The notes under the pieces are model-generated. The model ran no database searches. It saw only the letters and a list, made by a program, of their open reading frames with translations, and had not been told where the DNA came from. This document shows positions 1,680 through 57,031 of a stretch of DNA of 64,000 nucleotides, piece by piece; the stretch's first letter is position 1, and each line of letters starts with the position of its first letter. Source of the stretch: Aromatoleum evansii (lineage in GTDB: Bacteria; Pseudomonadota; Gammaproteobacteria; Burkholderiales; Rhodocyclaceae); the NCBI RefSeq assembly GCF_012910805.1, contig NZ_WTVK01000018.1, positions 1 through 64,000 on the forward strand, given 5' to 3'. Position numbers and translations under genes: made by a program.

Positions 1680-1841
1680 GGGTCCTGTCTCCTCGGTTTG
1701 TTGGCTGTCGTATGAGCCTTGTGCCGCGACGCAATCGCGGCTTCATGGGAGGAGATGGTAGGAATTCCAGCGACGGGGCCTTTGCCTGTATCCGTCACGC
1801 ACGTGCTCAATTCGGACCGATGCCCACGACGGTATGCGAAA

Positions 1842-6812: not shown

Positions 6813-7511
6813 TCAGGCCGCGCGCCGCTGCTGGATAAGGGCCTTGGCGGTCTCGACCGCCACGCCCGCATCGCGGCAGTAAGCATCCGCCCCCACCGCC
6901 TTGCCGAAGGCCTCGTTCAGCGGCGCGCCACCCACCAGCACGATGTAGTCGTCGCGCAGGCCCTTTTCCTTCAGCGTGTCGATCACGACCTTCATGTAGG
7001 GCATCGTCGTCGTCAGCAGCGCCGACATCCCCAGGATGTCCGGCTTGTGCTTCTCCAGTTCCTCGATGTAGGTCTCCACCGGGATGTTGATGCCGATGTC
7101 GATCACCTCGAAGCCCGCCCCTTCCATCATCATCGCCACCAGGTTCTTGCCGATGTCGTGGATGTCGCCCTTCACCGTGCCGATCACGATCTTGCCCACT
7201 GTCTCCGCACCGGTGTCCGCCAGCAGCGGACGGATGATCTCCATGCCGCCCTTCATCGCGTTGGCCGCCATCAGCACTTCGGGCACGAACAGGATGCCGT
7301 CGCGGAAATCCACGCCCACGATACGCATGCCTTCGACCAGCGCCTCGTCGAGCACCCGGCTCGCGCTCCAGCCGCGCGACAGCAGGATGTTGGTCGCCTC
7401 CACGATCTCCTCGCGCAGGCCGTTGTACAGGTCGTCGTGCATCTGCTCGATGAGCTCGTCGTCGGGCAGCGATGCCAGGTCGAAATCTTCGTCCTCGAAT
7501 TGCTCCGCCAT
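6813..7511 (-). CDS. Corrinoid (cobalamin-binding) methyl-carrier protein, copy 1
   Basis: A 232-residue B12 protein of the MttC/MtbC type. A helical cap (about residues 20-100) precedes a Rossmann-like B12 domain with the cobalt-ligand motif GDIHDIGKN (His118), then INIPVETYIEE, MSALLTTTMPYM and VLVGGAPL. The acidic N-terminus MAEQFEDEDFDLASLPDDEL is unusual for the family. Such proteins accept a methyl group from a substrate-specific methyltransferase and give it to the adjacent MTHF:corrinoid enzyme. A second copy at 13146 differs at only four residues (E6D, M24V, E34D, L185M). No MttB-type substrate methyltransferase is in the window. Confidence 0.95.
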   Translation of the reverse strand: MAEQFEDEDFDLASLPDDELIEQMHDDLYNGLREEIVEATNILLSRGWSASRVLDEALVEGMRIVGVDFRDGILFVPEVLMAANAMKGGMEIIRPLLADTGAETVGKIVIGTVKGDIHDIGKNLVAMMMEGAGFEVIDIGINIPVETYIEELEKHKPDILGMSALLTTTMPYMKVVIDTLKEKGLRDDYIVLVGGAPLNEAFGKAVGADAYCRDAGVAVETAKALIQQRRAA

Positions 7512-7604
7512 GGTCGTCTTCTCCTTCAAATCGTTGCGGGTGCCGACCGCAGCGGACCCGATGCGGCACAGGTTAGGGCGGCGCCCCGCAACTGGCAGGC
7601 ATCT

Positions 7605-7632
7605 CAACGACCCCGCCATGTCCAAACGCGAC
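7605..7632 (-). promoter_or_regulatory. Candidate 21-bp direct-repeat site upstream of corrinoid gene copy 1
   Basis: Read toward the gene, GTCGCGT is followed 21 bp later by GTCGTTG. The segment also includes the imperfect palindrome TGTCGCGTTTGGACA. The same arrangement is preserved ahead of copy 2 (13937-13964), where only spacer bases differ. The half-site is a weaker form of the GTCGCAA repeat seen elsewhere in the window. Confidence 0.35.
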
Positions 7633-7712
7633 AGGCTTATGCAGCTCCTTATGCAGCCCCTCATACCGCCCATTCGCGGCTAGCGAGCTTGCCCGTCAGC
7701 AATGACGGGACT

Positions 7713-7740
7713 GTCGCCTCACGACCCGAAGCCGTCGCAA
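7713..7740 (+). promoter_or_regulatory. Candidate AraC-type direct-repeat site upstream of the 7912 operon
   Basis: GTCGCCT and GTCGCAA stand 21 bp apart, about 170 bp ahead of the plus-strand gene at 7912, in the same orientation relative to the gene as the other sites. The 400-bp divergent gap 7512-7911 holds this site, the site at 7605 and the segment AAGAAGACTAAATTGCGC. The last resembles GGAAGACTAAATTGGGCG ahead of purU. No gene is visible in the gap. Confidence 0.45.
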
Positions 7741-7911
7741 CCAGACAAGCGAAGGTCGGAAAGAAGACTAAATTGCGCATACATCAATCTGCGGATGTTG
7801 TAAGGAGACGCCGCGGTGGAGGTCACACCGGCGGGGTGACACCACAACAACAAGCTCCATGGCCCATGCCGCCTTAGGAGCACCTGCCCCATCAACTTTC
7901 TCCAGACCTTC

Positions 7912-8199
7912 ATGACCCCCTCGGATTTTGTCGGACTCGTCGGTGTGATCGCCTGTCTCGTCGCATACGCCGGCCTGCAGATGGGCCGCCTCCAGCACGA
8001 CGACCTTCGCTACATCGGACTGAACATCCTCAGCCCCGCCTGCCTGCTGGTCTCGCTGATGCATGACTTCAACCTCGCGGCCGTGATCACCCAGGTGCTA
8101 TGGCTCGGCCTGAGTCTCATCGGCCTGTTGCGGGCGATGTACGCGCGCAGCCGCAAGACGGAACGCCTGGGCGCCAAGTGCGCGGAAACCGAAACCTGA
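7912..8199 (+). CDS. Small integral membrane protein (CBU_0592-like)
   Basis: A 95-residue protein with three to four hydrophobic stretches: DFVGLVGVIACLVAYAGLQM, then YIGLNILSPACLLVSLMHDF, then AAVITQVLWLGLSLIGLL. A charged cytoplasmic tail follows. The spacing and the tyrosine/asparagine-containing first loops recall the CBU_0592 membrane domain family, whose function is unknown. No strong Shine-Dalgarno sequence precedes the ATG. It lies 13 bp ahead of the hydantoinase-like gene on the same strand, so the two probably form an operon driven by the direct-repeat region at 7713. A link to betaine metabolism is inference from position. Confidence 0.65.
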   Translation: MTPSDFVGLVGVIACLVAYAGLQMGRLQHDDLRYIGLNILSPACLLVSLMHDFNLAAVITQVLWLGLSLIGLLRAMYARSRKTERLGAKCAETET

Positions 8200-13145: not shown

Positions 13146-13844
13146 TCAGGCGGCGCGCCGTTGCTGGATGAGCGCCTTGGCAGTCTCGACGGCCACGCCC
13201 GCATCGCGGCAGTAGGCATCCGCCCCCACCGCCTTGCCGAAGGCCTCGTTCAGCGGCGCGCCACCCACCAGCACGATGTAGTCGTCGCGCATGCCCTTCT
13301 CCTTCAGCGTGTCGATCACGACCTTCATGTAGGGCATCGTCGTCGTCAGCAGCGCCGACATGCCCAGAATGTCCGGCTTATGCTTCTCCAGTTCCTCGAT
13401 GTAGGTCTCCACCGGGATGTTGATGCCGATGTCGATCACCTCGAAGCCCGCCCCTTCCATCATCATCGCCACCAGGTTCTTGCCGATGTCGTGGATGTCG
13501 CCCTTCACCGTGCCGATCACGATCTTGCCCACTGTCTCCGCACCGGTGTCCGCCAGCAGCGGACGGATGATCTCCATGCCGCCTTTCATCGCATTGGCCG
13601 CCATCAGCACTTCAGGCACGAACAGGATGCCGTCACGGAAATCCACACCGACGATGCGCATGCCTTCGACCAGCGCCTCGTCGAGCACCCGGCTCGCGCT
13701 CCAGCCACGCGACAGCAGGATGTTGGTCGCCTCCACGATCTCGTCGCGCAGGCCGTTGTACAGGTCGTCGTGCACCTGCTCGATGAGCTCGTCGTCGGGC
13801 AGCGATGCCAGGTCGAAATCTTCGTCGTCGAACTGCTCCGCCAT
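13146..13844 (-). CDS. Corrinoid (cobalamin-binding) methyl-carrier protein, copy 2
   Basis: A 232-residue near-twin of the protein at 6813. It has the same GDIHDIGKN cobalamin-ligand motif and the same C-terminus, with only four changes (D6, V24, D34, M185). Identity is also high at DNA level and continues about 120 bp upstream, which shows a recent duplication or ongoing gene conversion. This copy heads the DUF1638/virulence-factor/metV/metF operon, whereas copy 1 heads the methyltransferase/activator/folE2 operon. The duplication may simply supply both operons with the same regulated promoter. Functional divergence looks unlikely with so few changes. Confidence 0.95.
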   Translation of the reverse strand: MAEQFDDEDFDLASLPDDELIEQVHDDLYNGLRDEIVEATNILLSRGWSASRVLDEALVEGMRIVGVDFRDGILFVPEVLMAANAMKGGMEIIRPLLADTGAETVGKIVIGTVKGDIHDIGKNLVAMMMEGAGFEVIDIGINIPVETYIEELEKHKPDILGMSALLTTTMPYMKVVIDTLKEKGMRDDYIVLVGGAPLNEAFGKAVGADAYCRDAGVAVETAKALIQQRRAA

Positions 13845-13936
13845 TTCGTCTTCTCCTTCAAGTCGTTGCGGGTGCCGACCGCAGCGGACCCGATGCGGCA
13901 CAGGTTAGGCGTAGCCCCTCGAACTGGCAGGCGTCT

Positions 13937-13964
13937 CAACGACCCGCTCATGTCCAAACGCGAC
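13937..13964 (-). promoter_or_regulatory. Candidate 21-bp direct-repeat site upstream of corrinoid gene copy 2
   Basis: Read toward the gene, GTCGCGT and GTCGTTG are 21 bp apart, the same pair as at 7605-7632. The TGTCGCGTTTGGACA palindrome is retained while neighbouring bases have changed. This is compatible with selection, though it may only reflect the recent duplication. Confidence 0.35.
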
Positions 13965-14010
13965 ACCGCGGACCGCCCGCGATCGCCGCCATCGTCAGCA
14001 CTGGCGCGGT

Positions 14011-14038
14011 GTCGTGCGGCGATCAGAACTCGTCGTAA
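14011..14038 (+). promoter_or_regulatory. Candidate direct-repeat site upstream of purU
   Basis: GTCGTGC and GTCGTAA are 21 bp apart, about 125 bp ahead of purU and oriented toward it. The following bases CCAGAC match those after the 7734 half-site. The 318-bp divergent gap 13845-14162 contains this site, the copy-2 corrinoid site and GGAAGACTAAATTGGGCG. No gene is visible in it. Confidence 0.35.
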
Positions 14039-14162
14039 CCAGACAGGCGAGCGCTGACCGGAAGACTAAATTGGGCGACGGCCAACAGTTGCGGCCACCC
14101 AGGGATCAGGAGCCGCCTCGCACGACCGGGGCGGACACAACGCTACATTCAGGAGACGCGCG

Positions 14163-15044
14163 ATGTCGGTAATGACCGAAGGCAAGAACATTTACGTACT
14201 CAAGGCGAGCTGCAAGGGCGTGATCGGCACGGTCGCGCGCATCTCGTCCTTCCTGGCCGAGCGCCATTGCTACATCATGGAAATGCAGCAGTTCGACGAG
14301 ATCCTGACCGGGCGCTTCTTCGTGCGCACGGTGTTCTCGACCGAGCCCGGCCGCACGCCGTCCTTCGACGCACTGAAGCAGGCCTTCGGCGAGGAGCTGC
14401 CGCGCGCGGAGGAAGACTTCACGTGGGAGATGCACGACACCCTGGTTCGCCCGAAAGTGCTGCTGATGGTGTCGAAGTTCGACCATTGCCTCGACGACCT
14501 GCTCTACCGCATGCGCACGGGCGAATTGAAGATGCAGGTGCCCGCCATCGTGTCGAATCACCCGGACCTCAAGCGTCTCGCCGACTGGTACGGCATCCCC
14601 TTCCATCACCTGCCGGTGACGCCCGAGACGAAGGCAGCGCAGGAGGCGCGTCTGCTCGAGATCGTCGCCGAGACCGGCTCCGATCTGGTTGTGCTCGCAC
14701 GCTACATGCAGGTGCTGTCCGAGGACCTGTGCCACAAGCTCTCTGGCCGCGCGATCAACATCCACCACTCCTTCCTGCCCGGCTTCAAAGGCGCCAAGCC
14801 CTACCACCAGGCGCATGACCGCGGCGTGAAGCTGATCGGCGCAACCGCGCACTACGTGACGTCCGACCTCGACGAGGGCCCGATCATCGAGCAGGCCGTC
14901 GAGCGCGTCGATCACACCTACCAGCCGGAACACCTCGTCGCCGTCGGCCGCGATACCGAATGCCTCGCCCTCGCCCGCGCCGTCAAGTACCACATCGAGC
15001 ACCGCGTGTTCCTCACGGGGAACAAGACCGTCGTGTTCCGTTGA
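14163..15044 (+). CDS. purU: Formyltetrahydrofolate deformylase
   Basis: A 293-residue enzyme that hydrolyses 10-formyl-THF to formate plus THF, recycling free THF when C1 units are in excess. It has an N-terminal ACT domain ([20 protein letters not shown]) and a formyltransferase-like catalytic domain with [40 protein letters not shown] and [19 protein letters not shown], including the expected catalytic His and Asp. AGGAGA precedes the ATG. In Pseudomonas a purU paralogue sits in the sarcosine oxidase operon; here it leads purU-folD-folC, consistent with dissipating methyl groups from betaine as formate. Confidence 0.96.
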
Positions 15045-23957: not shown

Positions 23958-24034
23958 GACGACTCCTCTGATCGGGTATCCGCGCCGCGCTTCGCACGGG
24001 GCGGGATCTCGGAGCCAAGGCTACGTGCTGGGGA

Positions 24035-24050: not shown

Positions 24051-24186
24051 AAAAACGACCGGAGCGGTTCTGCGCGCGACCGCGGAGGATCCGCGGGCTG
24101 GATGCTTGCCTCAACGCCACGCGCCGCAGCGCTCGCCCCGTTTCCCTTTCCATTTTACGAGTAGCTTTTAAGCTACAATGACAATC

Positions 24187-27755: not shown

Positions 27756-27896
27756 GTCCTCTTTTCCATTCTCATGATCGTGTCTCCGTTGGGTTATTGC
27801 TTACCGTCGTCGCTGCTTCACCCCGTGCGCTTCATCGCGGCGGGCGGCGCGCGGGCAGGAAAAGTGTAGGGGGATGGGAAATCGGCAAGACCCGGA

Positions 27897-27924
27897 TTGC
27901 GACCACCAGAATCGGGACTGCGTC
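27897..27924 (-). promoter_or_regulatory. Candidate AraC-type direct-repeat site upstream of proV system 1
   Basis: Read toward proV, GACGCAG and GTCGCAA are 21 bp apart, about 140-170 bp before the start. It has the same layout as the sites at 1842, 29045 and 48616. Confidence 0.45.
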
Positions 27925-28013: not shown

Positions 28014-28898
28014 TCAGAACGTCCTCGTCACCGAGAACAGGACCGTGCCCTTCAAGGGGTTGGAGACGTGCATCCTGCCCGAGGAGTCGACGGCGCCCGT
28101 CGTGTAGTTCTCGAACAGGTCGTCCTTATCCCAGGCCTTCGTATAGCCCAGCGACACGGTCCAACCGCCATCGAAGCTCTTGTTCACGGCCACCTTGGCG
28201 TCGCGCCAGTTCGCGAAGCTGAAGCCGCGCACGCGCTGATGGCCGTAGTGGAGCAGCAGGCCGTAGCCGGCGCCGAGGTCGAAGTTGGCGTTGATATCGA
28301 GGTAGCCCGAGCCGCGGCTGTGCCGGTCGCCGGTGCGCGCCGTGGTGCCGAGCGTCTCGTCGTTGAAGCCGAAATAGTCCCGCGTGTAGGTGAGCCAGTA
28401 CTTCACCGTGAGGAACTTGTAGCTGATACTGGGAACGATCTCGCCGTAGTCGTAGCGCACGTCGGCGAAGGCCATCTTCGCGCCGGGATAGACGTAATAG
28501 TAGGCGGTGACCCCGTAACCAATGTCCCCCGCCGTTCCGGCATAGCCTGCGTAAAGATCCCACTCGACGGTGCCGTTCTCGATGAAGCGGTTGCTCACGC
28601 TAGACATCCAGGTGCCGGCGAAGAATCCGCTCGGGTGCGCGTAGTCGAAACCGCCCTGCAGCGCGGGTTTGCCCCAAGTCTGCCGCCAGCCGCGCGAGAC
28701 GTACTGGGAGGTCAACGTGACATTCGCGGAGAGGGCGGACGCGGCGGGCTCCTCGGGTGCGACCGACGCGCCGGCCTGCGGCCCCGCTGCGATCTGCACG
28801 GGATCCGGATCCGCCGATTGCGCGAGCACGGGCGGGGCAATGCCCCACAGCGCCGTTGCGCACAGGCCGAGGACGGAGGCGGTGGTGTGGAATTTCAT
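28014..28898 (-). CDS. TorF-family putative outer-membrane porin
   Basis: A 294-residue protein with a signal peptide (MKFHTTASVLGLCATALWGI, cleavage probably after VLAQ). Alternating beta strands follow, such as LSANVTLTSQYVSRGWRQTW and GYGVTAYYYVYPG, and it ends in SVTRTF with a C-terminal phenylalanine, as in outer-membrane beta-barrels. The SQYVSRGWRQTWGKPALQGG opening is the TIGR02001 (TorF-like) signature. No substrate is known for the group; location between the two halves of a betaine/choline uptake system suggests a small quaternary amine. Perfect 21-bp direct repeats lie about 150 bp upstream. Confidence 0.85.
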   Translation of the reverse strand: MKFHTTASVLGLCATALWGIAPPVLAQSADPDPVQIAAGPQAGASVAPEEPAASALSANVTLTSQYVSRGWRQTWGKPALQGGFDYAHPSGFFAGTWMSSVSNRFIENGTVEWDLYAGYAGTAGDIGYGVTAYYYVYPGAKMAFADVRYDYGEIVPSISYKFLTVKYWLTYTRDYFGFNDETLGTTARTGDRHSRGSGYLDINANFDLGAGYGLLLHYGHQRVRGFSFANWRDAKVAVNKSFDGGWTVSLGYTKAWDKDDLFENYTTGAVDSSGRMHVSNPLKGTVLFSVTRTF

Positions 28899-29044
28899 TA
28901 TTTTTGCTCCTGGCACAGAACATGGAAGGACTTCTTTCGCACCCCCGCTCGCCGTCCAGGTCCGGTCGCAGCCTGTTCGCTCGAGGTCATCCTCCGGGGA
29001 GGCGAGCCGATTATTCGTCGCCAGGAACGGTCGCGCAGACGAGA

Positions 29045-29072
29045 TTGCGACCAGGAAACCCACGTTTGCGAC
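29045..29072 (-). promoter_or_regulatory. Perfect direct repeat GTCGCAA-N14-GTCGCAA upstream of the TorF-like gene
   Basis: Two perfect heptamers 21 bp apart, about 150 bp before the TorF-like gene and about 220 bp before the divergent ChoX-like gene. It is one of the two clearest sites in the window (the other is 48616-48643). The 392-bp divergent gap 28899-29290 holds this site and no gene. Confidence 0.6.
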
Positions 29073-29290
29073 CGGAACAGGGGATCTCCTGCAACACGCC
29101 CGCCACGGGGCGCCGTCACGACAGATCGGGTCGCGCAGAGGGAATCCGAAGGCGAAGCGGCTGGCTATCCTCGGCAGCACCTGTCGGTCCGGAACCGGCA
29201 GCCATAGCGAGCGGCACCCGGGCTGGCGCACACGTGCGCTGCCGGGCGTGTCGCCAGGATTGAATTCCACCGCACCGAAAAGGATCCGTC

Positions 29291-32963: not shown

Positions 32964-34013
32964 ATGGCAGCAGCAACGGCAGCGCCGACCTATCGCTTCG
33001 CATTCATCACACTCGACAACTATTCGATGATCGCCCTCTCGAGCGCGATCGAGCCGCTCCGCATGGCCAACTACCTGAGCGGGCGCGAGGTGTACCAGTG
33101 GTCCATCGTCACGCTCGACGGCCAGCCGGCCACCGCAAGCAATGGCGCGTACATGCTGCCGACGGTGTCGCTCGATGACATCGGGCCGGTGAACATCGCC
33201 TTCGTGTGCGGGGGCATCAAGGTCAAGGAAGCGATCACGCCTGCGCTGCTGGCCGCGCTGCGCCGCCTGGCGCAGCGGCACGTGCCGATCGGCGCACTGT
33301 GCACCGGGAGTTACGCGCTCGCGATGGCCGGCGTGCTCGAAAAGCACCCGGTGGCGATCCACTGGGAGAACATGGCCGGTCTGCTCGAAGAGTTCCCCGG
33401 CATCCACGTCACCGAGAAACTCTTCTCGATCGGCGACGACCGCTACACCTGCTCGGGCGGCATCGCGCCGCTGGACCTGATGCTTCACCTGATCAAGGAC
33501 CAGCTCGGACCCGAGATCGCGTTGGCGATTTCGGAGCAGTTCATCGTCGAGCGCGTCCGCGACGACAACGACCGTCAGCGCATCCCGCTGCAGAACCAGG
33601 TCGGCATCTGCCAGGAGAACCTGCTCAAGGTCGCCGCGCTGATGGAGGCCAACATCGAGGAGCCGCTCTCGCTCGACGAGTTGTCCGACGAGATCGGCGT
33701 CTCGCGGCGGCAGATCGAGCGCCTGTTCAAGCGCTACCTCAACTGCGTGCCGACCAAGTACTACCTGGACCTGCGCCTGCACCGCGCGCGCACGCTGCTG
33801 CTGCAGACTTCGATGTCCATCCTCGAAATCGCCATCGCCTGCGGCTTCCGCACGCCGCCGCATTTCGCGAAGTGTTATCGCGATCTCTTCGGCTACCCGC
33901 CGAGCGGCGAGCGCGGGCAGAAGTGCAGGAAGCCGCCGTTCACGCCGGTGCCGCTGCTGGCAACGCCGCGCGCTCAGGCCAGGCCGAGCGTGGACTACTA
34001 TGGAAATGCATGA
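32964..34013 (+). CDS. GlxA-type AraC-family transcriptional regulator 1
   Basis: A 349-residue regulator. The N-terminal DJ-1/PfpI-like domain (about residues 10-200) keeps the pseudo-nucleophile region IGALCTGSYALAMAGVLEKH and HWENMAGLLEEFPGIHV. The C-terminal AraC domain (about 215-320) has the double HTH: LSLDELSDEIGVSRRQIERL and SILEIAIACGFRTPPHFAKC. This is the same class as GbdR, which senses betaine and dimethylglycine. It is preceded by a probable BetI operator and by AGGAGACC. The TRAP operon 190 bp downstream may be its target. Two paralogues are at 42320 and 49065. Confidence 0.92.
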   Translation: MAAATAAPTYRFAFITLDNYSMIALSSAIEPLRMANYLSGREVYQWSIVTLDGQPATASNGAYMLPTVSLDDIGPVNIAFVCGGIKVKEAITPALLAALRRLAQRHVPIGALCTGSYALAMAGVLEKHPVAIHWENMAGLLEEFPGIHVTEKLFSIGDDRYTCSGGIAPLDLMLHLIKDQLGPEIALAISEQFIVERVRDDNDRQRIPLQNQVGICQENLLKVAALMEANIEEPLSLDELSDEIGVSRRQIERLFKRYLNCVPTKYYLDLRLHRARTLLLQTSMSILEIAIACGFRTPPHFAKCYRDLFGYPPSGERGQKCRKPPFTPVPLLATPRAQARPSVDYYGNA

Positions 34014-42319: not shown

Positions 42320-43390
42320 ATGGGGACAAAAATGGACGGAGTCATTCATCAAAGCCAGCGCTGCTTCGAGAGCCGCCTGCGTCACGGCAATCTGGCCTAC
42401 GTCGAAAGACGCGCACCCGGGCCCGATTCGACGCCGATCACGCGACGGGTCGTGTTCGTGCTGCTCGAACGCTTTTCGGTCATGGCATTCACCAGCGCAG
42501 TGGATGCGATCGTTACCGCCAATCTGGTTGCACGCGAACCCCTGTACCGATTCGAGACCTGCAGTCTCGAGGAATCCACGGTCCATAGCGATCTGGGCAT
42601 CGGGATTTCCGTCGACGGCCGGCTCTCCGCTCTGAACGCGAAGGGCATAGACCTTCTGGTCGTATGCGGGGGCTACCGAGCCACGCTGGAGCCCCGTCGC
42701 GACGTCGTAGACAAGCTGCGCGAAGTTGCGACCAACCGGGCAGCGCTCGGCAGCCTGTGGAACGGCAGCTATCTGCTCGCACACGCCGGTCTCCTCGACG
42801 GCTACGCGTGCACGGTGCATCCCGACAGCCGGGCCGGGCTCGAGGAAAGCTACCCGCGAGTCAGACTGCAGCCGCATCCGTTCGTAATCGACCGTGACCG
42901 CATCTCGTCTGCGGGAGCGAACAGTGCCCTCAGCATGATGTTGGCCGTGCTCCGCCAACATCACGGCGACGAGGTCGTGCGCGGCGTGGAGGACATCCTC
43001 GCCTGCGACCGCCCGGTCGAGGACACGGCGGATTGCCGAATGCGGGGCGTAGGCGAAGACCCCACCCTCCCCGAGGCACTCCGGACGGTTCTTCAGCTGA
43101 TGCAGAACAACGTCGAGGAACCGCTGGAGATCGATGACCTTGCACATCACGCCAGCATCTCGCGCCGACAGATGGACCGCCTGTTCAAGCGCTACATGAA
43201 TGCAACGCCATCGCGCTATTACCTCGAAACCCGCCTGACGCGCGCCCGGCGCCTGCTGCAGCAGACGAGCGAGTCGATCACGAGCATCGCCATCGCGTGC
43301 GGCTTCAGCAATGCGTCCCATTTCAGCCGCTGCTACCGCGAATTCTTCAGCGTCCCACCGTCACGTATGGGCGGCTCGCGGCGTAGTTGA
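42320..43390 (+). CDS. GlxA-type AraC-family transcriptional regulator 2
   Basis: A 356-residue regulator with the GbdR architecture. In the DJ-1/PfpI-like domain the usual LCTG(S/T)YALA turn is replaced by SLWNGSYLLAHAGLL, so the cysteine position is a tryptophan. The AraC domain (about 255-345) is complete: EIDDLAHHASISRRQMDRLF and SITSIAIACGFSNASHFSRC. The first ATG is at 42320; a second at 42332 is possible. It lies 242 bp ahead of the porin gene and may control that gene or the upstream catabolic operon. It is the most divergent of the three paralogues. Confidence 0.88.
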   Translation: MGTKMDGVIHQSQRCFESRLRHGNLAYVERRAPGPDSTPITRRVVFVLLERFSVMAFTSAVDAIVTANLVAREPLYRFETCSLEESTVHSDLGIGISVDGRLSALNAKGIDLLVVCGGYRATLEPRRDVVDKLREVATNRAALGSLWNGSYLLAHAGLLDGYACTVHPDSRAGLEESYPRVRLQPHPFVIDRDRISSAGANSALSMMLAVLRQHHGDEVVRGVEDILACDRPVEDTADCRMRGVGEDPTLPEALRTVLQLMQNNVEEPLEIDDLAHHASISRRQMDRLFKRYMNATPSRYYLETRLTRARRLLQQTSESITSIAIACGFSNASHFSRCYREFFSVPPSRMGGSRRS

Positions 43391-43443: not shown

Positions 43444-43492
43444 GTCGGCTATCACGTCACACATGTCCTGAATGGACGATTACCCGTCCAGC
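43444..43492 (+). promoter_or_regulatory. Possible regulatory triplet of GTC-led repeats upstream of the porin
   Basis: GTCGGCT, GTCCTGA and GTCCAGC begin at 43444, 43465 and 43486, that is, at exact 21-bp steps. A TGGACGATTACCCGTCCA palindrome overlaps the last two. Resemblance to the GTCGCAA repeat is limited to the first bases, so a different AraC-type regulator, perhaps the one just upstream, is more likely. Confidence 0.25.
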
Positions 43493-43631
43493 GCAGAACA
43501 GTCCTCCCTGTGTCCCTTCCATAACATGCGATCTGGGCAATCCGACTGAAGAGCGGATCGAGCGCGAACAGATCTTCGCGCCACCGCCCGGACCACTCCC
43601 GAGGGAGACCACAATGAACGAGGAGATAACG

Positions 43632-47448: not shown

Positions 47449-47517
47449 GTTATTTCCTCCTCGGTGCAGAAACGTTGGGGTGATATTCCCGCAGGCTGCG
47501 CGACGTCACTTGTGCTT

Positions 47518-47545
47518 TGTGGACGCAATCCAATTCAATTCCGAC
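47518..47545 (-). promoter_or_regulatory. Weak candidate direct-repeat site upstream of gbcA
   Basis: Read toward gbcA, GTCGGAA (6 of 7 matches to GTCGCAA) is followed 21 bp later by GTCCACA (3-4 of 7). It lies 70-97 bp before the gene, a distance similar to the perfect site before 48548. It could be a chance match. Confidence 0.3.
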
Positions 47546-47701: not shown

Positions 47702-48080
47702 GTGGGAGCCGGCTTCAGCCGCGAATACGCACGCTGGAGGACATCTGCTGCCGATTCGCGGCTGAAGCCGCTCCCACAGGAAGCCAAATCGGCCGTTCGT
47801 GCGATCGTCCGTCGCAGCTTCCTGTCAGTTGAGCAGGCGCGGGCGGATGGCGAAGATGCAGTGGTCGAAGCCGACAGCGCCGCATTGTGTTGTCCGTGGG
47901 AGCGGCTTCAGCCGCGAATACGCACGCTGGAGGACATCTGCTGCCGATTCGCGGCTGAAGCCGCTCCCACAGGAAACCAAATCGGCCGTTCGTGCAATCG
48001 TCCGTCGCAGTGTCCTGTCAGTTGAGCAGGCGCGGGCGGATGGCGAAGATGCAGTGGTCGAAGCCGTCGGCGCCGCATTG
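47702..48080. repeat. Tandem duplication (about 186 bp twice) covering the 3' end of the V4R-like gene
   Basis: 47702-47887 and 47896-48080 are nearly identical. Each starts with a GTGGGAGCGGCTTCAGCCGC palindrome, mirrored by GCGGCTGAAGCCGCTCCCAC about 55 bp on, and ends at CGCCGCATTG. The second copy contains the real stop of the V4R-like gene (48018) and its last 20 codons. The first copy holds a detached duplicate of those codons. The palindromes are REP-like and may act as terminators for both gbcA-side and V4R-side transcripts. Apart from this, the gap 47449-48017 holds the weak site at 47518 and no gene. Confidence 0.9.
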
Positions 48081-48548
48081 GGTTTCGCAGCAGATCGTGC
48101 TGAGCGGCTTGCCGGCGTTTTCGCCGATCCAGTCCATCATGCCCGCGAACCAGCCCGCGAACATGTAGCAGGTCCTGGCGGCGCAGGCTTCCGCCTGCGA
48201 GAGGACGAGCGTGGAATGGTCGAGGCGGACGTCGGCCGTGCCGGTGCGGAAGTCGGCCTCGGCGAGGCTGAAGCGACCCCAGCCGCGTGCCGATAGGCGC
48301 TCCAGGTAGTGTTCGAAGAGCTCGACGCCGGCGAGGCCGTGGGCGAACGCTTCCTTTTCGCACCAGTGGCGCGCCGACTTGTAGCTGGCGTGGTAGAGGA
48401 TGTCGCCGTAGCTTTCGTCACCCATGCCCGTCTCCAGGTCCTGCAGGGTATCAAGGCAGAAGCTGCGCGCGGCGAGGCGGATGGACTCATACTCGGCGTC
48501 GGCGCAGCCGTCGTCGTCCTGGTCCTGCCCGGCGCTCATCGAATCCAC
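48018..48548 (-). CDS. V4R-like (4-vinyl reductase domain) protein, possible dgc accessory
   Basis: A 176-residue protein starting MDSMSAGQDQDDDGCADAEY. The second half (CYMFAGWFAGMMDWIGENAG, KPLSTICCETQCGADGFDHC, IFAIRPR) has the pattern of V4R-type small-ligand domains. It resembles the partial protein at 63880 (TQSGAEEGCDYGVFITRPR), which suggests two family members in this island. Cysteines CCETQC and DHC could bind metal or a ligand. A DUF5943/V4R relative lies beside dgcA in Pseudomonas. Function is unknown; a sensory or binding role for methylated amines is inference. Two perfect GTCGCAA repeats lie just upstream. Confidence 0.7.
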   Translation of the reverse strand: MDSMSAGQDQDDDGCADAEYESIRLAARSFCLDTLQDLETGMGDESYGDILYHASYKSARHWCEKEAFAHGLAGVELFEHYLERLSARGWGRFSLAEADFRTGTADVRLDHSTLVLSQAEACAARTCYMFAGWFAGMMDWIGENAGKPLSTICCETQCGADGFDHCIFAIRPRLLN

Positions 48549-48615
48549 CTGTCGATCCTTCCCGTCAGCCTCATTGCATCATTATTCGCACCCCGGCGCG
48601 TCGTGGTCAGTCTGC

Positions 48616-48643
48616 TTGCGACAGGTTTCCGCGAGATTGCGAC
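48616..48643 (-). promoter_or_regulatory. Perfect direct repeat GTCGCAA-N14-GTCGCAA upstream of the V4R-like gene
   Basis: Two perfect heptamers, both preceded by TGT (TGTCGCAA), 21 bp apart and 68-95 bp before the V4R-like gene. It is one of the two best sites in the window. The 516-bp divergent gap 48549-49064, shared with the regulator gene at 49065, contains this site and an AT-rich patch (TATGTTTACAGACATATAGC, 48694-48713) that might hold a promoter. No gene is visible in it. Confidence 0.6.
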
Positions 48644-49064
48644 AGTTTGCTGCGCCCGGACCGTGAAGGCTGGCGAAGGCCGGGAGAAGCCGCTATGTTT
48701 ACAGACATATAGCTCGATCCGCATGGCGCACCAAAAAGAACAAGGCGCCCGCGTGACGCCCCATGCCGGGGCGTGAAACGCGAGGACGACCAACAGGAGA
48801 CACCGATGTTCCATTTCGCCGGGCCAGCCGCCCCAGGGCGTTCCGCGCCCGCCTCTCCCCCGACTCCATCCTGTCCGTCCCTGTGCCGGCGCCGCTCTTG
48901 CGGGAGCGATGTGGCGGGCTGACGCGCGTCTTTCCTGCCGCGCAGCACGCCTCGTCGCACAGAGGCATGGTTCCTGCTGAAGTCGGCATAGCGACTGCAC
49001 CGATGCAAACCGGTCCGCCGCACCAATCGATGTTTGCATTCGCCCAACCTTGAAATCGGAGCAC

Positions 49065-50075
49065 ATGGTGTCCGCCACACTCTCGTCCGTGACCCGCGTC
49101 GGTTTTCTCCTGCTGAACGAATTCACGATGATCGCGTTCTCCAGCGCGATCGAAGTCCTGCGCATGGCCAACCACATCAGTGGCAAGCCCTTGTACAGCT
49201 GGTCCGTGATCTCCACGGACGGTCAGCAGGTGGCCTCCAGCAACGGCCTCGCGCCCACACAGATCGGAACCTACGAGGAATCGGGGCCGTTCGACATGGT
49301 ATTCGTGTGCGGCGGCACCAACGTCACCCGCTTCGTCGATGACAAGGTGCTCGCCCTGCTGCGCCGCATCGCGCACGACAAGGTGATTCTCGGCGGGCTG
49401 TGCACCGGAACCTATGCGCTGGTGAAGGCCGGTCTGCTGAACGGCTACCGCGCGACCATCCACTGGGAGAACCTGAGCGCACTGCGCGAGGCCCACGGCA
49501 GGATCCACTTTGTCGAGGAGCTCTTCGTCATCGACCGCGACCGGATCACCTGTACCGGCGGCATCGCCCCCATCGACATGATGCTCGCCGTGGTGCGCGA
49601 GCGTTGCGGCAAGACCCTCGTTGCGGAAATCTCCGAGCAGTTCATCCTCGAACGGGTGCGCGACAGCAAGGATCGCCAGCACATCCCGCTGGCTGCGCGA
49701 GCGGGTTGCAACCGCAAGGCCCTGGTGGAAGTCGCAGCCCTGATGGAAGCGAACATCGAGGAGCCCCTGTCGCTGGAGGAGTTGTCGCAACTCGCCGGCC
49801 TCTCCCAGCGCCACCTGCAGCGCCTGTTCCGCGAAGCCTTGCAAGTCACTCCCAGCCACTACTACCTGGAATTGCGACTGCGTCGCGCGCGCGAGCTCCT
49901 GCTGCAGACGCAGATGTCCATCACCAACATCACGGTCGCCTGCGGCTTCCAGTCGGCCTGTCATTTCAGCAAGTGCTACCGCGCGCTGTTCGGCAAGCCG
50001 CCCAGCAGCGAGCGGCGGCCGCAGGGGACCGTGGCGGGCGTGGGCAAGCCCGTCGTCCATCATCTGGCGGCATGA
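49065..50075 (+). CDS. gbdR: GlxA-type AraC-family regulator 3, probable GbdR
   Basis: A 336-residue regulator. The DJ-1/PfpI-like domain has VFVCGGTNVTRFVDDKVLAL and GGLCTGTYALVKAGLLNGYR followed by ATIHWENLSALRE. The AraC domain has LSLEELSQLAGLSQRHLQRL and SITNITVACGFQSACHFSKC. GbdR of Pseudomonas activates gbc, dgc, sox and transport genes when betaine or dimethylglycine binds. Closeness to gbcA and the domain match make this the best GbdR candidate of the three paralogues. The ATG at 49065 has CGGAG ahead; a TTG at 49050 is an alternative. A terminator hairpin follows at 50111. Confidence 0.88.
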   Translation: MVSATLSSVTRVGFLLLNEFTMIAFSSAIEVLRMANHISGKPLYSWSVISTDGQQVASSNGLAPTQIGTYEESGPFDMVFVCGGTNVTRFVDDKVLALLRRIAHDKVILGGLCTGTYALVKAGLLNGYRATIHWENLSALREAHGRIHFVEELFVIDRDRITCTGGIAPIDMMLAVVRERCGKTLVAEISEQFILERVRDSKDRQHIPLAARAGCNRKALVEVAALMEANIEEPLSLEELSQLAGLSQRHLQRLFREALQVTPSHYYLELRLRRARELLLQTQMSITNITVACGFQSACHFSKCYRALFGKPPSSERRPQGTVAGVGKPVVHHLAA

Positions 50076-50428: not shown

Positions 50429-53400
50429 TTGCCCACATGGCTCATCGCGGTGGTGGTAGCGGCCTATCTCGGGCTGCTGTTCGCCATCGCCTATCTGGGC
50501 GAACGCGCCGCAGACGCGGGACGCAGCCTGATCGCGAATCCCTATGTCTACGCGCTCTCGCTGTGCGTCTTCCTGACCGCGTGGGGCTTCTACGGCGACG
50601 TCGGCGTCGCCGCGAACTCGGGCATCGCCTACCTGCCGGCGAACATCGGGCCGTGCGTGATGGCTTGCCTGTGGTGGATGGTGCTGCGCAAGATCATCCG
50701 CATCGCCAAGGACAACCGCCTCACCTCGCTGGCCGACTTCATTTCCTCGCGCTACGGCAAGAGCGGCCTGCTCGCGGGGCTCGTGACGGTGATCGCGCTG
50801 CTGGGGGTGACGCCCTACGTGTCGCTGCAGCTCAAGGCGGTGGCGATGAGCTTCCACTTCCTGCGAGGCTATCCGGACGCGCCGGCGACCACGTCGCTCG
50901 TCGACAGCATATGGCACGACACGACCTTCTACGTGACCCTGCTGCTGGCCGCATTCACGGTCGTGTTCGGCACGCGCAAGCTCGATCTCGCCGAGCGGCA
51001 CGAAGGCATGGTCGCCGCGATCGCCTTCGACTCGCTGGTCAAGCTGCTCGCCTTTCTCGCCGTCGGCATCTTCGTCACCTGGGGGCTGTACGACGGCCCG
51101 GGTGATCTCTTCGGCCGTGCAGCCGAGGTGCCGCAGTTCGCCGCACTGTTCACGATCGGCGGTGGCGAGCGCGGCGGACAGTCGCCCTGGGGATCGCTGT
51201 TCGCCATCTACGCCGTCACCATGCTCGCGGTGATGTTCCTGCCGCGGCAGTTCCAGGTGGCGGTGATCGAGAACGTCGACGAGACGCACGTGAATCGGGC
51301 GATCTGGCTGTTTCCGTTGTATTTCCTGCTGTTCGACCTCTTCGTGCTGCCCATCGCCTTCGCCGGCCTGCTGCAGTTCGGCCCCGACGGCGCCGTCAGC
51401 CCGGAGAGCTTCGTGCTCGCGCTGCCGATGGCCGCGCAGCGCGAGGCGCTGGCGCTGCTCGTGTTCGTCGGCGGTTTCGCCGCGGCTACCGGCATGGTGG
51501 TCGTGGAGGTCATCGCGCTGTCGACGATGGTTTGCAACGACCTGGTGATGCCGATCCTGCTGCGCGTGAAGGCGCTGCGCCTGACGGAACGGACCGACCT
51601 GTCGGGCCTGCTGCTGGCGATCCGGCGCATCACCATCGTGGGGGGGCTCCTGCTCGGCTACGCGTATTACCGGCTGGCAGGCGAAGCCTATGCACTGGCG
51701 TCGATCGGGCTGCTCTCGCTGGCAGCGGTGGCGCAGTTCGCGCCCGCCCTGCTGGGCGGGCTGTACTGGAAGGCAGGCACCAAGGCGGGCGCGTTCGCCG
51801 GGCTGGGGGCGGGTTTCGTGGTGTGGCTCTACACGCTGGTGGTGCCCGCCTTCGCGCGGGCGGGATGGCTATCGCCAACGCTGCTCGAGCAAGGCCCCTT
51901 CGGCGTGGGGCTGCTGCGCCCGCTCGCACTGTTCGGCCTGGAGGGGCTCGACGAGACCAGCCATGGGGTGCTGTGGAGCATGTTCGCCAATGTCGGGGCC
52001 TACGTGGCGGTGTCGCTCCTCAGCGAACAGGACAGCGTGGAGCGGACCCAAGCGGCGCTGTTCGTCGACGCATCGAGGCACGATCGCGGTATCGAACGCG
52101 ACTGGGGAGCACGCGGTTCGCTGCCCGACCTGTATGCGCTCATGCAACGTTTCCTGGGTCCGGAGAATGCCCGTCAATCCTTGGCGTCGTATGCGATGCG
52201 GCATGGCCTCGACTGGCCGCGGGAGGTGGACGCCGATCTGGCGCGCTACTGCGAAGCGCAACTGTCCGGCATCATCGGCGCGGCTTCAGCGCGTCTCGTG
52301 CTCGGCTCGGTGGTGGAGGAAGAGTTCCTGCGCGACACGCTCACCGGCCTTCCGAACCGCGCATTGCTGCTAACCCGTCTCGGCGACGCCCTCGACCGCC
52401 ACCGGCTGGGCAAGGCGCACGGGTTCGCCCTCCTGTTCATCAGCCTGGACCGCTTCCGACTCATCGGTGACAGCCTGGGCGCAACCGTCGCCGACGAGTT
52501 CCTGATTGCGGTCGCACGCAGCCTGGGCTCCGGGCTCCGCCCCGGTGACACGGCGGCCCGCCTGGGCGGCGAGAATTTCGCGCTCCTGCTCGACGAAACC
52601 AGCGATGTCACGGAGGCGATACGCTTCGCGGAGCGCCTCCAGACCGAGTTGGCGGCCGGCTTCAACGTGGACGGGCACGCGCTGTTCTCGTCGGCGAGCG
52701 TGGGGATCGCCCTCGGCCGGCCCGACTACGCAGACCCCGCCGACATCCTGCGTGACGCGGAGACGGCCGCGCACAACGCCACGCGGCGCGGTGGTGCGTG
52801 CCAGGAGGTCTTTGCCGCCGACATGCGCGAGCGCGTGGTCGCCCTGCTCGACATGGAGACGCAGTTGCGCCGGGCGGTTTCACGCGGCGACGAGTTCCGC
52901 GTCTACTACCAGCCCATCGTCGACCTGCCCACCGGCCGGTTGGCCGGGTTCGAAGCGCTGGTGCGGATGCGCCGGGCCGACGGTACGCTGGTGCCGCCAG
53001 GCGAGTTCATTCCGCTCACCGAGGAGACCGGTCTCATCGTGTCGATCGGCCGCTGGGTGCTGGCCGAAGCCTGCCGACAGATGCAGGACTGGCAACGGCG
53101 TTTTCCGGAGCGCGCGGCCGGGAAGATCAGCGTGAACCTCGCCGGCCGGCAGTTCGTGCAGCCGGACCTGCTCGAGCAGATCCGTGCGGTGCTGGCCGAA
53201 ACCGGCCTCGACGCGGGCAGTCTCAAGCTGGAGGTGACCGAGACGCTGCTGATGGAGCACGCCGAAGCGGCGGCCGCCGTGCTGACGAAACTGCGCGCAC
53301 TCGGAATCGAACTCCTGATGGACGACTTCGGCACCGGCTACTCGTCGCTGTCATACCTGCACCGCTTCCCGCTCGACACCCTGAAGGTCGACGCCTCCTT

Positions 53401-53626
53401 CGTGCGCCGCATGGACACGGACCAGGCGGCGGACGATATCGTCCAGACGATCGTCACCCTCGCCCGCACGCTCGGTATGAGCGTGATCGCCGAAGGGGTC
53501 GAGACCGCGGCCCAACTGGCCCGGCTGCGGGCCTTGGGGGTCGATTATGGCCAAGGATATTACTTTGGCCAGCCGCTCGACGCAGAAGCCGCCGAGCGGA
53601 TGATCAGCACTGCGCCGACCTGGTGA
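50429..53626 (+). CDS. Sodium:solute symporter fused to degenerate GGDEF and EAL domains
   Basis: A 1,065-residue membrane protein with a TTG start at 50429 behind GGGAG. About residues 1-520 form a sodium:solute symporter-type domain with some 12 to 14 helices ([40 protein letters not shown]). Next comes a GGDEF-like domain (about 620-780) whose motif reads [13 protein letters not shown], so cyclase activity is doubtful. The EAL domain (about 810-1060) is complete: [54 protein letters not shown] and GYYFGQP. This suggests a transport-coupled receptor that breaks down cyclic di-GMP when a solute (betaine, choline or another) binds. Fusions of symporter and histidine kinase (CbrA) are known; the EAL version is less familiar. 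Confidence 0.9.
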   Translation: [1065 protein letters not shown]

Positions 53627-56784: not shown

Positions 56785-56812
56785 CTGCGATCCAGCGGGT
56801 GGAACTGCCGAC
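56785..56812 (-). promoter_or_regulatory. Moderate candidate direct-repeat site upstream of proX system 2
   Basis: Read toward proX, GTCGGCA and ATCGCAG (each 5 of 7 matches to GTCGCAA) are 21 bp apart, 77-104 bp before the gene. It is weaker than the sites at 29045 and 48616 but has the same layout. Confidence 0.35.
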
Positions 56813-56838: not shown

Positions 56839-57031
56839 CCGTTCGGACTGGGCCCTTCGACTAGCTCAGGGCGAACGGTAATACCTTAACGAGAAGATCG
56901 GCGAGAATCAGTCTAGGGGTCCGCGGGTCGGGCAATTTACCCATGTGCGACCTCCAGTCGATCTGTTTGCGGCATCGGGCGGAGCAAGGTTTCGTAGGGC
57001 GGGAGGCGTTACGCTCCTCCCGACCTACGGG
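56839..57031. repeat. Two dispersed palindromic repeats in the proX upstream gap
   Basis: At 56839-56880 is CCGTTCGGACTGGGCCCTTC with its mirrored end CAGGGCGAACGGT, the family seen at 5702. At 56993-57031 is CGTAGGGCGGGAGGCGTTAC with CTCCTCCCGACCTACGG, the GTAGGGCGGGAG family seen at 1906, 17627 and 20440. The 381-bp gap 56709-57089 holds these, the repeat site at 56785 and no gene. Confidence 0.75.

Follow-up and report, generated by a model that had tools for sequence, protein, structure and literature searches.

Predicted operators in the window

The 64,000-nucleotide stretch of Aromatoleum evansii DNA analysed here (the window) carries short direct repeats, taken as predicted operators, ahead of genes for choline uptake (choX, proXVW), choline oxidation (betBA) and the betaine oxygenase (gbcAB), as well as ahead of both mtgC copies, which belong to corrinoid betaine demethylation (as does mtgB, whose site lies outside the window), and of the one-carbon genes purU and, within the mtgC2 operon, metVF. 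The operator of mtgC1-MeTr(MtgD-like)-RACo(RamA-like) (7605-7632, minus strand) has a -10 hexamer TAACCT at 7570-7575, scores 36.4-38.5 bits and is found in six of six genus genomes, our own included; that of mtgC2-DUF1638-metVF (13937-13964, minus strand; GTCGCGT/GTCGTTG) has TAACCT at 13902-13907, scores 35.8-39.4 bits and is found in five of five, again counting our own. On the plus strand, 7912 (a CBU_0592 membrane protein) and 8213 (hydantoinase A) are preceded by an operator at 7713-7740 (-10 TAAATT at 7769-7774; 24.2-26.8 bits), kept in five of six genus genomes at 18.7-26.8 bits. A third half-site at 7755-7761 (plus strand) makes three in a row at 21-bp steps, an arrangement also present in G006, G013 and G016. 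The purU operator (14011-14038, plus strand; -10 TAAATT at 14067-14072) scores 15.4-20.7 bits and recurs in all nine genus genomes at 20.7-24.6 bits. Sites 7605 and 13937, like 7713 and 14011, look like copies of one duplicated divergent promoter region and are therefore not independent, so that each pair is counted once. The two MtgC copies themselves are 96% identical, and the divergent promoter copies face 7912/hydantoinase (6813-8199) and purU (13146-14163). The -10 hexamer of mtgC2 (13146-13901, minus strand) abuts the start of the longest open reading frame and in many relatives the alignment begins no earlier than residue 17-31, so that translation probably starts some 25-30 codons further downstream.

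Among the choline and betaine genes, betBA is preceded by an operator at 24053-24080 (minus strand; -10 TAGCCT at 24018-24023; 14.9-16.2 bits; five of five genus genomes at 15.2-18.5 bits), and proV1-proW1 by one at 27897-27924 (minus strand; -10 TACACT at 27863-27868; 15.2-15.9 bits; four of six genus genomes). A TorF-family porin gene, whose start lies near 28898 by genus alignment, has a perfect pair at 29045-29072 (minus strand; -10 AATAAT at 29010-29015; 15.4 bits with a rigid and 21.4 bits with a flexible matrix; five of five genus genomes), and the gene of the choline-binding protein ChoX (from 29291) a site at 29109-29136 (plus strand; -10 TATCCT at 29166-29171; 13.6-14.2 bits), found at the same place in five of six genus genomes at 8.8-14.5 bits. 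Further sites precede gbcAB (47518-47545, minus strand; -10 GAATAT at 47483-47488; 14.3-16.3 bits; eight of eight genus genomes at 11.9-19.4 bits), a DUF5943 gene at 48018-48548 (a second perfect pair, 48616-48643, minus strand; -10 AATAAT at 48581-48586; 17.3-18.9 bits; three of three tabulated genus genomes) and proX2-proV2-proW2 (56945-56973, minus strand, with a 22-bp step; -10 TAGACT at 56910-56915; 13.5-14.7 bits; seven of seven genus genomes at 10.1-15.7 bits). A probable operator lies at 43465-43492 (plus strand; GTCCTGA/GTCCAGC; -10 TAACAT at 43522-43527; 15.0-19.7 bits) ahead of a porin-like gene (from 43629) without a Pfam match; it is present in two of four genus genomes and is weak or divergent, and its half-sites lack the G of GTCG. 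The sites of betBA, choX and this porin-like gene had been missed by a first-pass annotation of the window.

Upstream of glyA, a divergent block at 1790-1817 (minus strand; GTCCGAA/GACGGAT) with TACCAT at 1755-1760 is conserved in all eight aligned upstreams, including that of a paralogue. It scores only 7.7 bits here against 21.6 in G007, and thus stays a candidate. The paralogue, a second glyA outside the window (G000:C269:421-1680, L136; 98% match), carries the same conserved upstream block.

Half-site pairs and the matrix scan

The first-pass annotation had proposed a GTCGCAA-N14-GTCGCAA repeat at ten places, and at all ten coordinates the sequences are present as quoted, including the perfect pairs at 29045-29072 and 48616-48643, both on the minus strand. 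No further perfect pair exists in the 5.94-Mb genome, where about 0.002 per 64 kb would be expected (from 17 half-sites). Across 17 genus genomes there are seven perfect pairs in five genomes, each orthologous in position to one of the two perfect sites of the window, against none in 17 for a reversed-pattern control. The 21-bp direct repeat is real. Loose pairs with at most three mismatches are not enriched, either in the window (10 observed, 10.9 expected) or in the genome (802, against 753 for the reversed control), nor are pairs with at most one mismatch (7 against 5), so by half-site matching alone the weaker of the proposed sites are indistinguishable from chance. Judged by the refuting condition set out with the first-pass annotation, half-site matching on its own does not uphold the weak sites; half-site counting was rejected as a test because its signal is not separable from chance.

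We therefore turn to an extended matrix trained on 47 of 53 rows, all from outside the window; the rows dropped were L013, L015 and L023 (best pair judged misplaced), L035 (incomplete) and two window sites. In the own genome it was run over the window plus a further 38 kb of the same contig, over 40 kb of contig C269 and over 160 kb of other stretches. With a rigid 21/29 matrix, nine sites in the window reached 14 bits or more, where shuffles would give 0.125; it missed proV1 and proX2, for which reason a version with one base of play was used; the proV1 operator is found only by this version. At a threshold of 13 bits the flexible matrix gave 12 sites in the window and 0.42 in Markov shuffles, and it gave the same 12 when L008 and L009, the rows nearest to the genus, were removed and the matrix retrained on 45 rows (L008, identical to G015:C24 in length and site, is probably the same contig). 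Real DNA produces more background with the matrix than shuffled sequence does: the 160 kb of other own stretches held about 3.2 matches of at least 13 bits per 64 kb, and the sequence outside the mtgC upstreams at 79 of 80 listed outside loci held 2.96, so that the comparison is one of about 3 with 12 in the window, although the matches in the 79 loci may include other true sites.

All 12 window matches lie upstream of a gene and read in its direction, as had been asserted for the original ten, in a window of which 17.8% is intergenic by our own gene list. When the halves were scored alone, with the -10 term omitted, a step of 21 gave 14 matches of at least 9 bits, 12 of them upstream and correctly directed, while other steps from 14 to 29 gave 0-4 such matches. 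The -10 score has a single peak, at the expected offset, and none for matches in coding DNA. Eight of the ten sites first proposed were recovered by the outside-trained matrix (7605, 7713, 13937, 14011, 27897, 29045, 47518 and 48616) and two were not. The site assigned to proX at 56785 scores below 8 bits, and it is 56945-56973 that is conserved instead; at the one assigned to glyA (1842-1869), the half-site is kept in four of eight aligned upstreams, once as GTCGCTA.

The operator upstream of mtgC in other genomes

Searches of the wider family at E 1e-60 found MtgC in one of 121 genomes and GbdR-like proteins in six of 121, and because both are so scarce there, footprinting relied on the genus and on mtgC-bearing loci. 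The independent set comprised 80 listed loci, out of 583 confirmed, at which other genomes encode a relative of MtgC (among the matches listed, the best one with a species name is from A. toluolicum, at 88%); together with the two window paralogues these gave 82 upstream sequences, three of them shorter than 420 bases. Exact GTCGC pairs occur at a step of 21 in 26 of the 82, and at any other step from 10 to 39 in 0-4. Relaxing the half-site to GTCGY gives a pair at step 21 in 52 of the 80 listed loci against 0-8 at other steps, and requiring in addition a [TA]AnnnT hexamer at promoter distance (GTCGY-N16-GTCGY) leaves 45 of 80 loci at step 21 against 0-1 at the other steps from 12 to 35. The proposal that the corrinoid/folate branch shares its predicted operator with betaine oxidation is supported by these counts.

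The site is unevenly distributed among the listed loci, being present in 11 of 11 from Betaproteobacteria, 20 of 33 from Gammaproteobacteria, 3 of 17 from Alphaproteobacteria, 1 of 8 from Actinomycetota and 10 of 11 unclassified; the 35 of 80 that lack it are made up of 14 alphaproteobacterial, 7 actinomycetotal, 13 gammaproteobacterial and 1 unclassified locus. The sole actinomycetotal positive (L043), whose site is nearly that of the proteobacterial L048, may be a misbinned contig.

An alignment of 50 sites shows T-GTCGC followed by a G-x-x-A-A box, a second copy of the core 21 bp further along, and TAnnnT at position 57, the fixed -10 having come out of the alignment unprompted. The half-site core is (T/G)GTCGC, and the 21-bp period holds with the exception of proX2, where it is 22 bp in five of seven genus genomes. 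The purine/A-rich box downstream of each half-site (columns 10-14 and 32-36) is conserved in the mtgC sites and weaker in the others. The promoter-proximal half-site lies over the -35 position with the -10 at fixed spacing, a geometry that suggests a class II AraC-type promoter.

Conservation across the genus

For each of 50 gene families, the best upstream score was taken from the fetched stretches of nine mtgC-bearing genus genomes. Sixteen operon-leading genes have median scores of 10.7-38.1, one gene has 9.6 (n = 2), and the 33 genes that are internal or unrelated have at most 1.9, among them gbcB, betA, metF, metV, RACo, MeTr, etfA, etfB and folC, and also the TRAP, dapA and aldehyde dehydrogenase genes. 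Sites are absent from single genomes for proV1 (G013 and G007), gbdR (G016 and G015), 7912 (G011), a dipeptidase (G016), the porin (G010 and G015) and choX (G007). Conversely, G012 has unexpected sites before both hydantoinase and DUF1638, G011 has one before hydantoinase, and G007 has one before the 32964 regulator.

Outside the window, a site at C99:67198-67225 lies about 300 nt upstream of gbdR (five of seven genus genomes), another at C99:65590-65617 precedes a dipeptidase-DUF5943-dgc-type operon (five of six), and a third at C99:75481-75508 precedes mtgB, at the same place in eight of nine genus genomes (9.4-19.7 bits). Of the 17 genus genomes, nine have MtgB-type (PF06253) genes, and these are also the nine with close relatives of MtgC. 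The betaine/dimethylglycine genes with an operator are gbcA, the dgc-type operon, betB and proX2; the soxB profile TIGR01373 gave no match at E 1e-60, and its control likewise matched nowhere.

Between 34204 and 43390 the window holds genes for a TRAP transporter, a DapA-like protein, an aldehyde dehydrogenase, an FAD oxidoreductase and a GATase1-AraC regulator (GATR) at 42320, with no sites upstream, which probably makes this stretch a separate regulon under a GATR of its own.

Candidate regulators

Eight proteins of the genome match the GATR at 49050-50075 (plus strand) at E 1e-40, itself included. The only gene above the curated GbdR cut-off of 480 bits is the GbdR orthologue, at C99:65832-66899, 1.8 kb to the right of the window, with 549 bits and its own upstream site. 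Within the window, the GATR at 32964-34013 (plus strand) scores 418.7 bits and the 49050 protein 395.6 bits, both below the cut-off, and a third and more distant GATR (42320-43390, plus strand) scores 289.6 bits and has no site upstream.

In a tree of 63 sequences, 17 of 28 GATRs from the listed outside mtgC loci (Comamonadaceae, other Beta- and Gammaproteobacteria, and unclassified) join the 32964 group and none joins the 49050 group. The 32964 group (23 rows) has an SH-aLRT support of 96, and together with the adjoining 49050 group (31 rows) one of 99; 15 of the tree's 60 inner branches have weak support, and some of the long ones carry a flag. At the 69 listed loci with more than 3 kb to the left of mtgC, all 16 with a 32964-group neighbour have the site. 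Fourteen have the site without a GATR in the fetched stretch, six have it with another GATR, and 33 lack it, six of these with a GATR, the association being inflated by relatedness among the loci.

Residues of the recognition helix contact the DNA core in the AraC family. Every member of the 32964 and GbdR groups has SRRQ in its first recognition helix, whereas the eight rows of the 49050 group all carry either SQRH or SPRH there (SQRHLQR in the 49050 protein); since most of the more distant 42320 group also has SRRQ, the helix does not single out one regulator. Nor is any close regulator group common to all nine site-bearing genus genomes, where the types of unfetched proteins were judged from their match rows. 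In G007 the 32964 type is the sole representative of the three close groups (there is no 49050 orthologue), and the mtgC, purU and gbcA sites are kept, those of proX and mtgB being weaker; G010, G016 and G012 lack the 32964 type, have the 49050 and GbdR types, and retain the mtgC/purU sites. Such differing sets suggest that more than one GATR can probably serve the sites. The most likely readers, as judged from sequence, would be GbdR itself (C99:65832-66899) and the 32964-type regulator, with probable overlap between the two.

A probable shared switch and its alternatives

The repeat, its 21-bp step and the promoter geometry support the suggestion of the first-pass annotation that an AraC-family (here GATase1-AraC) protein would bind a direct-repeat operator. 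We consider it very likely that the repeats would act as operators for GATase1-AraC activators of the GbdR/CdhR/ArgR kind, working in class II mode with a betaine-related ligand. In the mechanism that we infer, two direct half-sites 21 bp apart, each a T-GTCGC followed by a G-x-x-A-A box, would form the operator, with the box of the second half-site at the -35 position and a -10 hexamer (TAnnnT) at a fixed distance; betaine, dimethylglycine or a related compound would be the trigger, and the bound dimer would act in the class II manner, bringing RNA polymerase to the promoter. The betaine breakdown and B12-dependent demethylation routes are probably turned on together in this way by regulators of known type. 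We lean, though only slightly, towards the further idea that the 32964-type GATR subfamily next to mtgC is a dedicated switch for B12-dependent betaine demethylation in Beta- and many Gammaproteobacteria, which in this genus would have merged with the GbdR regulon through the shared operator, so that the first demethylations by GbcAB, which needs oxygen, and by MtgBC, which does not, are co-induced.

That the pairs are chance occurrences of GTCG, abundant in GC-rich DNA and picked out near interesting genes, would agree with the loose pairs, which match shuffles and the reversed control; it is contradicted by the step-specific enrichment in independent genomes, the fixed -10 and the gene-by-gene conservation, and we regard it as extremely improbable. 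The first-pass annotation had named the protein at 49065 (the 49050 GATR) as the natural candidate, in effect a master regulator of all the sites. It is GbdR-like, adjoins gbcAB and has an orthologue in eight of nine site-bearing genus genomes, but this candidacy is weak: the protein falls short of the GbdR cut-off (395 against 480 bits), is absent from G007, has no site at its own promoter, belongs to a group whose recognition helix is altered in every row, and has no close counterpart among the 28 GATRs of the outside mtgC loci, all of which makes so broad a role for it very unlikely.

A more serious contender is a set of parallel regulons, in which GTCGC is the common target of such GATase1-AraC proteins but every paralogue controls a separate subset and answers to a different ligand, GbdR acting on dgc and itself, 32964 on mtgC, purU and choline uptake, and 49050 on gbcAB. 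Several GATRs do lie on one contig, the site subtypes differ (gbcA GTCGGAATTGA; purU/7912 ccAGACA), and in Pseudomonas aeruginosa the CdhR and GbdR sites are described as overlapping while their action differs (PMC5806209). The persistence of sites despite missing paralogues, namely of the mtgC, purU and gbcA sites in G007 and of the mtgC/purU sites in G010, G016 and G012, argues that the subsets are not tied to one paralogue, and we hold this arrangement to be possible, with perhaps a one-in-three claim on belief.

Relation to known systems

The shared operator resembles several described ones. CdhR has GGTCGC half-sites separated by 15 bp that closely resemble those of GbdR, SouR and ArgR, and the CdhR/caiX operator of P. 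aeruginosa is, like the sites here, a direct repeat with a 21-bp step; CdhR is classed as a class I activator upstream of its promoter (PMC5806209), whereas the present sites adjoin the -10 in the class II manner. The ARG box of Pseudomonas ArgR, TGTCGCN6GNAA in tandem with a 5-bp gap, has the same 21-bp period, although ArgR is a different regulator that responds to arginine (PMC10963909). The P. aeruginosa GbdR regulon shares with the present one a GATase1-AraC regulator with GTCGC-like direct half-sites (PMC5806209), and also glycine betaine catabolism. It differs in that here the B12-dependent branch (mtgB, mtgC, RACo, MeTr and metVF) and several GATRs are also present, the 32964-type GATR being a frequent neighbour of mtgC.

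MtgBCD(E) was reported in 2025 as an aerobic glycine betaine methyltransferase of Ruegeria pomeroyi, and MtgC, MtgB/MttB-type, MeTr-like, RamA-like and DUF1638 proteins occur there as well as here, with GbcAB and a MetH-like frame also present here (PMC12478193). In the part of that text available, which concerns the enzymes, 'AraC', 'promoter', 'GbdR' and 'transcription factor' have no occurrences and no regulator is named. DUF1638 and RamA-like proteins have been connected with B12 reactivation in a paper that puts forward no specific role for DUF1638 (PMC5764234). The open-access literature searched contained no report linking GbdR-type control to corrinoid/mtgC betaine demethylation.

In kind, then, the predicted switch would be an ordinary GATR operator; what would be new is its scope, with B12-dependent demethylation placed under the deeply conserved predicted operator of betaine oxidation. 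Control by GbdR of P. aeruginosa extends to one-carbon genes such as glyA, so that glyA and purU may not be new as targets; mtgB and mtgC appear to be. The conserved operator gives the aerobic MtgBCD route a testable switch and a ready reporter site, makes the regulon traceable across genomes by sequence, and suggests that the cell handles the B12/folate branch as betaine catabolism, rather than only as methionine synthesis. Members of the Aromatoleum group live with and without oxygen, and the placing of the O2-dependent GbcAB and the Mtg system under one operator leads to a clear prediction for the handling of a major osmolyte in both conditions.

Two other genes were recorded alongside this system. 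A GGDEF-EAL protein of 1065 aa (50429-53626, plus strand), without a site, lies near betaine genes in six of the nine mtg-bearing genus genomes, as judged from the fetched stretches. A MtgC-like match (36%) at G000:C88:55622-56113 falls inside a 1245-aa open frame that is probably MetH, so an ordinary methionine synthase seems to coexist with the Mtg system in this genome.
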